Below are positions 1,105 to 56,740 of a stretch of DNA of 64,000 nucleotides, in pieces. The notes beneath the pieces were generated by a model that worked only from the letters and a program-made list of their open reading frames with translations, was not told where the DNA came from and ran no database searches. Origin of the DNA: Kangiella marina. Its GTDB lineage: Bacteria; Pseudomonadota; Gammaproteobacteria; Enterobacterales; Kangiellaceae. Position 1 is the first letter of the stretch, and each line of letters begins with the position of its first letter. The stretch is from positions 1,550,001 to 1,614,000 of the forward strand of contig NZ_BAABFV010000001.1 of the NCBI RefSeq assembly GCF_039541235.1, written 5' to 3'. Position numbers and translations under genes: made by a program.

Positions 1105-1135
1105 GTTATCGGGTTACAAGGGTTTGGAGTCAGTT

Positions 1136-2017
1136 ATGTCGAGTGAAATGATCGAGCGAGTGGCATTAGTCGGCGGAACTCATGGTAATGAGTTGACCGG
1201 AATTTATTTACTCAACAAGTATCGGCAGTACCCGAAACTGATCGAGAATAATAGTTTTAAGCTGGAGCTTTTTGAGGCTAACCACAAAGCATTTTTGGTT
1301 AACCGACGTTATATCGATCGGGATCTTAATCGTAGCTTCAAGCTTGCAGATCTCAATGATGACTCCTTGTTTGGTCATGAAAATGAGTTGGCAAAACGGA
1401 TTAACCAAAAGCTTGGACCGAAAGGCGACAGTCGTACGGATATGATTATTGATTTACATACTTCTACGGCTCCGATGGGGGTTAACCTGGTGTTAACCAA
1501 AACCGATACCTTTCACTTAATGCTGGCAGATTATGTTCAACAGCGCATGGAGGATGTTTCGGTAACTCTTGAGGCGATGCCTGATCATCACTTTTTGATG
1601 TCCGTTGCGCCACAGCATGTTTTGGTAGAAGTCGGAGCGACAGCACAAGGACAGTTACGCCAAGATGTATTCGATAAGACAGAAGAAACCGTCCAGTTAA
1701 TTTTTAAGTTCCTCAATCAATACAATAAGCATCAATTGCCACAGCCGTCTGAATCTATAGATGTTTTTGAATATTTTGACGTCATGTTTTTACCGACGGA
1801 TATCAATGGCGATATTGCAGGCATGATCCATCATGGCATTCAAGATAGAGATTTTTCGCTATTGAGAACCGGTGAACCAATGTTTACTTTGCTGAACGGC
1901 GATGAAGTAATTTATGACGGCGAAGACTGTTATATGAGCTTTATCAACGAAGCCGCTTACTACGACGAAAAGAAAGCCTTCGCCATGTCGAGGAAGAAGG
2001 TTTTTCATATAGGGTAG
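1136..2017 (+). CDS. Aspartoacylase/AstE-family zinc amidohydrolase
   Basis: The protein starts MSSEMIERVALVGGTHGNE. The His and Glu of GGTHGNE, the DLNR substrate-binding motif, the second zinc His in IIDLHTST and the catalytic Glu in VEVGATAQG are all present in family order, so the enzyme should be active. Aspartoacylases deacylate N-acetylaspartate or related N-acyl amino acids in the cytoplasm. I chose ATG 1136 rather than the in-frame TTG at 1124 because GGAG lies at 1126-1129 with good spacing. About 293 residues is close to the mammalian ASPA length. It follows the nuclease gene by ~30 bases on the same strand. Exact substrate is not determined by the sequence; succinylglutamate desuccinylase is less likely without an ast operon nearby. 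Confidence 0.8.
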   Translation: MSSEMIERVALVGGTHGNELTGIYLLNKYRQYPKLIENNSFKLELFEANHKAFLVNRRYIDRDLNRSFKLADLNDDSLFGHENELAKRINQKLGPKGDSRTDMIIDLHTSTAPMGVNLVLTKTDTFHLMLADYVQQRMEDVSVTLEAMPDHHFLMSVAPQHVLVEVGATAQGQLRQDVFDKTEETVQLIFKFLNQYNKHQLPQPSESIDVFEYFDVMFLPTDINGDIAGMIHHGIQDRDFSLLRTGEPMFTLLNGDEVIYDGEDCYMSFINEAAYYDEKKAFAMSRKKVFHIG

Positions 2018-2386: not shown

Positions 2387-2410
2387 AAAAAAAACCGCCC
2401 AAAGGGCGGT
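2387..2410 (-). terminator. Rho-independent terminator of the candidate sRNA
   Basis: On the minus strand ACCGCCC, a TTT loop and GGGCGGT form a perfect 7-bp GC-rich stem followed by a run of eight T. It faces away from the flanking plus-strand genes and has no minus-strand protein gene upstream, so it implies an RNA gene. Confidence 0.85.
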
Positions 2411-2570
2411 ATAGCGTGAAGAGACCTATGATAGCAGTTTTATTATTGTTGGAATTGGGTTCGCTGGATCATACTCGTAGGAGAGGTGGGGTTTTCCGAT
2501 AAACACCACTATCATGACCTCAGCGAATGTCGTGGTAGGTCATTACCGTGTTCTGTATGACCTGACCTTG
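2387..2570 (-). ncRNA. Candidate Fur-repressed small RNA (RyhB-like)
   Basis: A minus-strand transcript of about 184 nt is predicted from a promoter at 2577-2605 to a strong intrinsic terminator at 2387-2410. No protein gene lies on this strand here. A 19-bp site at 2599-2617 overlaps the -35 element and matches the recalled Vibrio Fur consensus at 14 of 16 fixed positions, so iron-replete repression is expected. The RNA contains CCACGACATTCGCTG (plus 2521-2535), resembling the CACGACATTGCT core of enterobacterial and Vibrio RyhB. That segment lies in the loop between a GACCT and an AGGTC arm. RyhB pairs through such a core to silence iron-protein mRNAs, with Hfq. Promoter, operator, terminator and strand are seen; function is inferred. 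Confidence 0.6.
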
Positions 2571-2576
2571 AAACGA

Positions 2577-2605
2577 ATCATACTCTTTAAATTCTTTAAA
2601 TGCAA
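2577..2605 (-). promoter_or_regulatory. Predicted sigma-70 promoter of the sRNA
   Basis: On the minus strand TTGCAT (2600-2605) and TATGAT (2577-2582) are separated by exactly 17 bases. The -10 matches consensus at five of six bases; the -35 only at three. Start of transcription would be near 2570. Confidence 0.55.
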
Positions 2606-2617
2606 ACGATTCTCATT
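2599..2617 (-). promoter_or_regulatory. Predicted Fur box
   Basis: The minus strand reads AATGAGAATCGTTTGCATT, an imperfect inverted repeat around a central C. It overlaps the -35 element of the sRNA promoter, the classical position for repression by Fe-Fur. It could also affect the pirin gene starting 112 bases away on the other strand. Confidence 0.65.
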
Positions 2618-2728
2618 ACAGTTTAAAAGAAAGTTGAAAAAAGTGAGAACTGCATCAATATCTAGTCATATTAGGTAAGAATAAGTGGCTCTGTTTTTAA
2701 TAAAAGAGTGACTTTAAGGAGTCGTCAG

Positions 2729-3604
2729 ATGACGCATAAAACGATTCAAGGTATTTACAAAGCACCACAAGGTCACTGGGTTGGTGATGGTTTCCCGGTG
2801 CGTTCTTTATTTGCTTACAGCGGTTCTTATAACCAGAAGGGGCAACAGATTAGTCCGTTCTTGCTGCTGGATCATGCGGGGCCCGCGAGCTTTGAAGCAA
2901 GCAACCGTCCGAAAGGTGTGGGTGAGCATCCGCATCGTGGTTTTGAAACGGTGACGATTGTTTATCAAGGCGAAGTGTCGCATCGGGACTCCACTGGTAA
3001 AGGCGGTACTATCTATCCGGGTGATGTGCAGTGGATGACGGCTGGTGGTGGTATCTTGCACGACGAGTTCCACTCGGAAGCTTTTACTGAACGCGGGGGC
3101 GTCATGGAAATGGCGCAGCTTTGGGTGAACTTACCGCAAAAGCACAAAATGGTGACGCCGGGTTATCAGGCGATTCAGTCAGAGGATATTCCGAATCTAT
3201 CCTTAGACGGGGGCAAGCTGAGAATTATTGCGGGTGAGTATCAAGGTAACAAAGGACCAGCACATACCTATTCGCCTCTCAATGTCTGGGACTTCACCAT
3301 GGCAAGTGGTCAGCAGCAGCAACTATCCATTAACAAAGTCTGGAACACGATTGTGGTTGTGTTGAAAGGGGCGATAACAATTAATCATCAGCGAGCTTCA
3401 ACAGACGATACGGTAATATTTAATCAGGGTGGTACCGACATCGATATCACGGCTGAAGAGGATTGTACCCTGTTACTGCTTAGCGGAGAGCCGTTGAATG
3501 AGCCCATTGTCGGAGCGGGCCCATTCGTTATGAATAGTGAAGATGAAATCATCCAAGCTTTTGATGACTTCAAAAATGGTCAGTTTGGTCGAAGCCTAGA
3601 CTAG
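2729..3604 (+). CDS. Pirin family protein
   Basis: A bicupin protein of ~291 residues. The N-terminal cupin carries GEHPHRGFET and, downstream, GGGILHDEFHSE, which provide the three His and one Glu metal ligands known from pirin and YhhW. Bacterial pirins have been linked to quercetin dioxygenase activity and redox or metabolic control; the physiological role here is unknown. I start at ATG 2729, preceded by AAGGAG at 2716-2721, not at the in-frame GTG at 2708, which lacks a ribosome-binding site. It stands alone, convergent with the slipin gene. The nearby predicted Fur box raises the possibility of iron control, unproven. Confidence 0.9.
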   Translation: MTHKTIQGIYKAPQGHWVGDGFPVRSLFAYSGSYNQKGQQISPFLLLDHAGPASFEASNRPKGVGEHPHRGFETVTIVYQGEVSHRDSTGKGGTIYPGDVQWMTAGGGILHDEFHSEAFTERGGVMEMAQLWVNLPQKHKMVTPGYQAIQSEDIPNLSLDGGKLRIIAGEYQGNKGPAHTYSPLNVWDFTMASGQQQQLSINKVWNTIVVVLKGAITINHQRASTDDTVIFNQGGTDIDITAEEDCTLLLLSGEPLNEPIVGAGPFVMNSEDEIIQAFDDFKNGQFGRSLD

Positions 3605-56408: not shown

Positions 56409-56740
56409 GGGGATATTAAGGTTTTGCAATTTGGGGGGTATTATAAGGGGAAAGGTGGGGAACTACTAATCGGGATTTTTCTTTGGCTACTTGTTTCGCT
56501 TTTCTGCGAGTTACTTTTCTTACGTGCCTAAGAAAAGTAACCAAAAGAAGGGCATCCCAATATTGAGACCTCGCTTTGCTCGGTTTCCTTCATAGTAACC
56601 AAGTCACTTAACGTACCGTGACATACATTCCATCCATGGCCTGTATGTCACTATTCAAAACGTCCTGTTTTGAATTACTATGACTTGCTCACTCTTCAGC
56701 TCAATCTTATGGAGCTTGAATTGTCTATGGGGTTCTGAAG
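56409..56740. repeat. Dispersed intergenic repeat with several stem-loops
   Basis: No gene is seen. GTTACTTTTCTTA pairs with TAAGAAAAGTAAC (56510-56522, 56529-56541), a 13-bp perfect stem. TGACATACA/TGTATGTCA and ATTCAAAAC/GTTTTGAAT follow. The block from CCCAATATT through ACCGTGA, TCCATCC, TGGCCTG and CACTATTCAAA is shared, in order, with the repeat near 38.8-38.93 kb. Confidence 0.7.

Follow-up and report, generated by a model that had tools for sequence, protein, structure and literature searches.

A candidate Fur-repressed, iron-sparing small RNA in Kangiella with a conserved pairing module at its 3' end

The locus lies in a 64-kb stretch of the genome of Kangiella marina, referred to as the window, between an aspartoacylase-like open reading frame (ORF; 1124-2017, plus strand) and a pirin ORF (2708-3604, plus strand); we take both gene names from our own reading of these ORFs, and the nearest named loci to the pirin ORF are those of K. 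taiwanensis and K. shandongensis. The intergenic stretch between them carries signals of a small RNA (sRNA) on the minus strand, on which we detected no ORF of at least 50 aa in this region. In the direction of transcription, these signals start with a predicted Fur box, AATGAGAATCGTTTGCATT (2599-2617, minus strand), recognized by its match to the consensus. The -35 element of a sigma-70-like promoter, TTTGCA-18-TATGAT (2577-2606, minus strand; -10 at 2577-2582), overlaps the Fur box. The position of the -10 element predicts an sRNA of 184 nt (2387-2570, minus strand), which would end at a perfect intrinsic terminator with a 7-bp stem, ACCGCCC-TTT-GGGCGGT, followed by eight T (2387-2410, minus strand). 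An earlier note made from the same sequence had reported each of these elements and the lack of a protein gene on this strand, and our analysis confirms them; the proposed 17-base spacer is obtained if the -35 element is read as TTGCAT, the spacer being 18 bases if it is read as TTTGCA.

The individual signals are not equally distinctive. The Fur box matches 14 of the 16 fixed positions of AATGANAATNATTNTCATT and is the top site of the window under this consensus, the runner-up matching 12. Across the four consensus strings used for scoring, it ranks sole first under one, ties for first place with a single other site under a second and with many sites under a third, and ranks third under the fourth. 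The third rank was obtained with the 19-mer GATAATGATAATCATTATC, for which the box scores 13 of 19, a score shared by 19 places, while two sites reach 14. The scan for sigma-70-like promoters over 2 kb returned two sites, including the candidate, and shuffled sequences yield 3.2, so that the promoter taken on its own is within chance expectation. The predicted 184-nt RNA folds with low energy (z = -3.3; 1 of 200 shuffles folds as well). We nevertheless treat these signals as one feature because the Fur box, the -10 element, the terminator and a 3' module described below recur together in relatives. The RNA further presents an AAC-AAT-AAT-AAA run (2439-2450, minus strand), which we take to be a possible Hfq distal-face site given its resemblance to the (ARN)n motif; this run and the U-tail are its only Hfq-type features. 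A motif scan of loci covering part of the genomes located neither hfq nor the Fur gene.

The 5' part of the sRNA is variable among relatives, and two stem-loops are common to five genomes. Stem-loop 1 (2537-2563, minus strand) is variable in sequence, with two-sided changes in two of its seven pairs. Stem-loop 2 (2460-2527, minus strand) is closed by TTCGCTG/CAGCGAA, an arm that is missing in three relatives (genomes G009, G008 and G016). Two-sided changes were counted in 9 of 36 pairs, a number equalled by none of 500 shuffles and compared to one to three for slid structures, with the consensus structure being favored by its derivation from the alignment on which its covariation was scored. 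Stem-loop 2 includes in its upper part, around 2488-2501 (minus strand), a TATCGGAAAGCCCC-like stretch that is well kept in the five genomes despite variable flanks. An ORF of 29 aa, MIVVFIGKPHLSYEYDPANPIPTIIKLLS, is also contained in the RNA (2426-2515, minus strand); a similar ORF is found in G001 and is absent from the six other RNAs.

The earlier note had placed the pairing region at 2521-2535 (minus strand) and read CCACGACATTCGCTG as a RyhB-like core. Across five genomes, the 15 columns of this element read CCACGACATTCGCTG, CAACACAATTCGCTG, CTAAAAAATTCGCTG, CAACGTAATTCGCTG and TACGAGTATTCGCTG. None of the seven columns of its first half, CCACGAC, is invariant, and TTCGCTG forms the 5' side of stem-loop 2; the constant part of the element is mostly a stem arm. 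We also found no match to the Rfam RyhB model at the gathering score in the window, and none up to an E-value of 5 when the region and 10 related loci were scanned; searches with the models of PrrF and other Rfam iron sRNAs gave no match either. Because the proposed core varies and the Rfam iron sRNAs are unmatched, we conclude that the RNA is not a homologue of RyhB and that, as far as its sequence can tell, the element is not a RyhB core. The Fur box and the terminator are kept in relatives but the proposed core is not. The three heptamers that had been suggested to mediate alternative folding (AGGTCAT twice, ATGACCT once) are indeed present, but the switch is not conserved: all three occur only in the RNA of the window among the five aligned. 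Elsewhere in the window, at 56606-56680 (minus strand), a TwoAYGGAY RNA match scored above the Rfam gathering score.

The highest conservation of the RNA, visible at the RNA level, is found at the other end of the molecule, just before the terminator. This 3' module, GCTATCATAGGTCTCTTCACGCTATA (2410-2435, minus strand), is supported by exact 24-mer matches and by matches to our covariance model R1. In five genomes, 28 of 28 columns are invariant, against none of seven for CCACGAC. The first 24 bases of the module are found exactly in 7 of the 20 genomes of the genus, and the reversed control in none of the 20. Its core 16-mer, AGGTCTCTTCACGCTA (2412-2427, minus strand), is identical in all nine aligned genomes, i.e., in nine of the ten genomes that hold the module, and these belong to two separate clades; the tenth, G012, presents 13 of the 16 nucleotides and reads TCTCTTCACGCTA.

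A blastn search with the region yielded matches in 11 of 61 genomes (E ≤ 0.01), eight of them Kangiella. Stand-alone copies with a Fur box, a -10 element and a terminator were identified in G000, G001, G014, G006, G018, G009 and G008; the aspartoacylase-like gene adjoins all seven copies and pirin is near six of them, the exception being G008. The pirin match of that genome (G008:C4:387803-388653) is split and contains three stop codons, and is likely a decayed copy. An eighth stand-alone copy, in G016, occupies a different genomic place. The Fur box thus precedes eight of eight stand-alone copies spread over two genomic neighbourhoods, and the -10 element reads TATGAT in seven of them and TATACT in G016. 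The lengths of the predicted RNAs range from 100 to 197 nt among these copies. Beyond the terminator (2340-2386), G000 and G001 share an inverted repeat, GTCTC..GAGAC, with a CCATGG-like flank. Across 40 genomes of the family, model R1 matched 26 at E ≤ 1, and the seed was present in only one of the 15 weak matches that we inspected, that of G012. In G000, there is a single strong match and the next one has an E-value of 0.85. A search of 394 genomes of the order, scored with stricter filters under which weak matches are lost, returned 11 matching genomes at E ≤ 0.005: ten Kangiella and G143. The match in G143, located where a csrA-like ORF ends, does not contain the full seed and seems to be fortuitous. 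The phylogeny of YqcC (112 aa, with good support for 4 of 17 inner branches and stop letters dropped from the rows) groups G004, G012, G016, G010, G015 and G017 as clade B, and the copies of the window's type as clade A.

We then searched for sites complementary to the module in the mRNAs of iron enzymes. The genes sodB and the cytochrome subunit of succinate dehydrogenase, which are standard targets of iron sRNAs, were chosen before any complementarity was known (12 genomes each), and aconitase-family genes were fetched afterwards from nine genomes (35 rows, 30 as loci). The module was found to be complementary to sodB, sdhC and aconitase mRNAs, in line with the targets that the earlier note had proposed to check. 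The segment UUCACGCUAUA (2410-2420, minus strand) is complementary to TATAGCGTGAA in the 5' UTR of sodB: the leaders of G000, G001, G006, G008, G009 and G018 contain this site, which is perfectly complementary over 11 nt to the module's 3' end; in G000, it lies 18-28 nt before the ATG and just upstream of the Shine-Dalgarno sequence. The longest exact complement is therefore 11 nt in six of the seven clade-A genomes, and 8 nt in G014. The RNAs of clade B (G016, G004 and G012) read ACGCTAATC and not ACGCTATA, and their sodB genes carry GATTAGCGT. All three sodB leaders of the sRNA-holding clade-B genomes match their own module over 9 nt and the clade-A module over 6 nt; conversely, clade-A leaders match their own module over 11 nt and the other over 9 nt in six of seven cases, with 8 nt to each in G014. 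This clade-specific match is a single clade-level event. Only 5 nt are complementary at sodB in G013, where the sRNA was not detected, whereas G010 keeps the 9-nt clade-B site GATTAGCGT although no sRNA was found in that genome. The sodB leader of G013 contains GAGCGTAAC. It may be that G010 and G013 possess diverged copies of the sRNA.

Overlapping segments of the module match other iron-enzyme mRNAs. The segment GGUCUCUUCAC (2416-2426, minus strand) is complementary to the leuC leader GTGAAGAGACC, and (C)GTGAAGAGACC is found near the start codon in G000, G001, G009 and G018 (11-12 nt; four of six clade-A genomes). In G006 and G008, leuC presents GTGAAAAGACC, with one mismatch and exact runs of only 5 and 6 nt, and clade B has no such site, with 7-8 nt elsewhere. 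The segment UAGGUCUCUU (2419-2428, minus strand) is complementary to the first codons of sdhC, which has a GTG start: the 10-nt site AAGAGACCTA is found in four of the seven clade-A genomes, 8 nt in the three others and 7 nt in all three clade-B genomes. Because this site falls in the codons K-R-P and eight of its bases also occur in G013, where the sRNA was not detected, it may be explained in part by coding. The segment AUCAUAGGUC (2423-2432, minus strand) is complementary to GACCTATGAT, which spans the ATG of nqrA over 10 nt and is the same in all five genomes examined. Among the aconitases, the 864-aa enzyme has 8-10 nt near position -20 in six of six clade-A genomes and 5-6 nt in clade B; the 917-aa AcnA type has 8-10 nt in six of six, but far upstream (-44 to -81); and acnB has 7-9 nt over its GTG start in six of six, with only 7 nt in G000. 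The exact 11-mer GCGTGAAGAGA occurs at 19 places in ten genomes, ten of which are the RNA locus itself, and we found no start region shared among them; the nine remaining places include three copies of one internal coding site.

Several of these sites are short, and their significance was evaluated against 292 gene starts sampled from the same genome, with start codons assigned by a simple rule. No background start reaches 11 nt and two reach 10 nt, one of them being nqrA. Match lengths are equalled or exceeded by 2 of the 292 starts for sdhC, 5 for the AcnA type and 11 for the 864-aa aconitase. Duplex energies as low were observed for one background start in the case of sodB and none for leuC, and only these two stand out: the corresponding numbers are 78 for sdhC, 47 for the AcnA type and 105 for the 864-aa aconitase. 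When complementarity was summed over six targets, the totals of 47-61 (null mean 33-34) were equalled by none of 1000 shuffled modules in each of six clade-A genomes, counts that are not independent from one genome to another since the genomes are related. Over five targets, shuffled modules were as high in 0 of 300 (G016), 2 of 300 (G004) and 3 of 300 (G012). Taken singly, the weak sites prove little, and our argument depends on sodB, leuC and the summed complementarity.

These results make it likely that the locus encodes a Fur-repressed iron-sparing sRNA that acts like RyhB but belongs to a different family, with its seed at the 3' end and sodB and leuC as its strongest candidate targets. 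A predicted Fur box over the promoter and complementarity to iron enzymes, strong for sodB and leuC and weaker for the others, would place it in this functional class, and the earlier note was probably right about the function. We infer transcription, Fur binding, Hfq involvement and repression from sequence signals. When iron is present, Fur would cover the -35 region and keep the gene off; under iron shortage, the RNA of about 184 nt would be made. Its 5' part would form the two stem-loops, and an A-rich single strand and the 26-nt module would precede the terminator. Through overlapping stretches of 8-12 nt, the module would pair with the leader, ribosome-binding region, start or first codons of the mRNAs of Fe-superoxide dismutase (sodB), isopropylmalate isomerase (leuC), succinate dehydrogenase (sdhC), the aconitases and perhaps the Na+-NADH:quinone reductase (nqrA). 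Such pairing would lower translation, stability or both, and scarce iron would be spared.

Alternatively, the RNA could be an sRNA under Fur control with a main function other than iron sparing, its matches to iron enzymes being mostly incidental. This explanation would fit the short length or ordinary duplex energy of several sites or their loss from some species, the overlap of the sdhC site with a coding constraint, and the presence of the sodB site in G010, where no sRNA was detected; we nonetheless consider it improbable given the shuffled modules (0 of 1000 in each of six genomes), the background (0 of 292 at 11 nt) and the clade-specific match at sodB. Still less credible is a true RyhB homologue of the Rfam family acting through a CACGACATT-type core: although CCACGACATTCGCTG resembles the RyhB core and both the Fur box and the set of targets recall those of RyhB, the lack of an Rfam match, the variability of CCACGAC and the location of TTCGCTG in a stem, with its absence from G008, G009 and G016, speak strongly against it. 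It is very unlikely that the transcript is the mRNA of a small protein, since the 29-aa ORF (RNA positions 56-145) is open in G000 and G001 but absent from six of the eight RNAs, and conservation peaks in the module at the RNA level. Equally implausible is a conserved terminator or DNA element without a trans-acting RNA: the most conserved part does adjoin the terminator, but conservation reaches upstream into the A-rich run while G016, G004 and G012 have a different stem, complementary sites exist elsewhere, and the Fur box and the -10 element are kept.

The module is also found in a second genomic format. In G004 and G012, the module and the terminator follow the ORF of a TonB-dependent receptor (733 and 738 aa, ending in VTLKYEF and VTLKYEL, respectively), which we take to be a heme receptor, with divergent genes that are presumably a heme transporter and HugZ. 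The receptor gene has its own Fur-like box (AATGATAATGATTTGCATT in G004 and AATGAGAATGATTTGCATT in G012). The module is thus positioned in the 3' UTR of the receptor mRNA, with a shared terminator, in these two genomes and not in the species of the window. G016 has the same flanks (MGMT-like, DsbE-like / YqcC-like): the heme genes are absent and a Fur box, a -10 element and a 100-nt RNA with the module are found. Between the DsbE-like and YqcC-like genes of G010, G015, G017 and G007, we detected neither the heme locus nor the RNA, and the loci examined for receptor homologues (31-32% identity) in six other Kangiella contained no TCTCTTCACGC. We see about even chances that the genus has one iron-sparing RNA in two formats, in G004 and G012 as the 3' UTR of a heme-receptor mRNA under Fur control and otherwise as a stand-alone Fur-driven gene, and that G016 gives a momentary view of how an sRNA gene arose when the coding part was lost, or of the opposite change, capture by a receptor gene; the YqcC phylogeny leaves the direction of the change unfixed. 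If this is true, the receptor-mRNA format would couple heme uptake with iron sparing in a single transcript.

The candidate resembles several known systems without matching any of them. Like RyhB of enterobacteria, Vibrio and Shewanella, it has a directly upstream Fur box, an intrinsic terminator and predicted targets among sodB, sdhC and aconitase; it differs by the lack of an Rfam match and by a pairing region that adjoins the terminator at the 3' end, that of RyhB being central. The likeness to PrrF1/PrrF2 of Pseudomonas lies in an intergenic Fur box and terminator and in a RyhB-like role without homology to RyhB, as described in PMC4211561; the Kangiella RNA, by contrast, is single copy (G000) and gave no PrrF match in Rfam scans. 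BrrF of Burkholderia has predicted targets that include sdhC, sodB and acnA, is processed from hemP, a heme-uptake mRNA, at the 3' end of which it lies, has no directly upstream Fur box and shows its highest conservation in the 5' end (nt 4-45), according to PMC7377471. It shares with the Kangiella RNA these types of targets and, for G004 and G012, the position in a 3' UTR, that of a probable heme receptor; in contrast, eight of the ten Kangiella copies are stand-alone genes preceded by a Fur box, and conservation is found in the 3' part. The module in G004 and G012 likewise sits at an mRNA 3' end and uses its terminator, as do 3' UTR-derived sRNAs such as CpxQ, SdhX and NarS (PMC9438474), but the element is an independent gene in eight of ten genomes. 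RyhB, PrrF, BrrF, FsrA and IsrR perform the same job with no shared sequence (PMC11257911, PMC4211561, PMC7377471).

A search of the open-access literature found no paper on sRNAs of Kangiella. To our knowledge, little has been established about the origin of iron-sparing sRNA genes. We regard the RNA described here as a new family within a known functional class, with a 3'-end seed and an instructive evolutionary setting: among relatives, one RNA can be traced both as the tail of an mRNA and as a gene of its own, with its target site differing alongside. Kangiella thereby gains a directly testable iron regulon.
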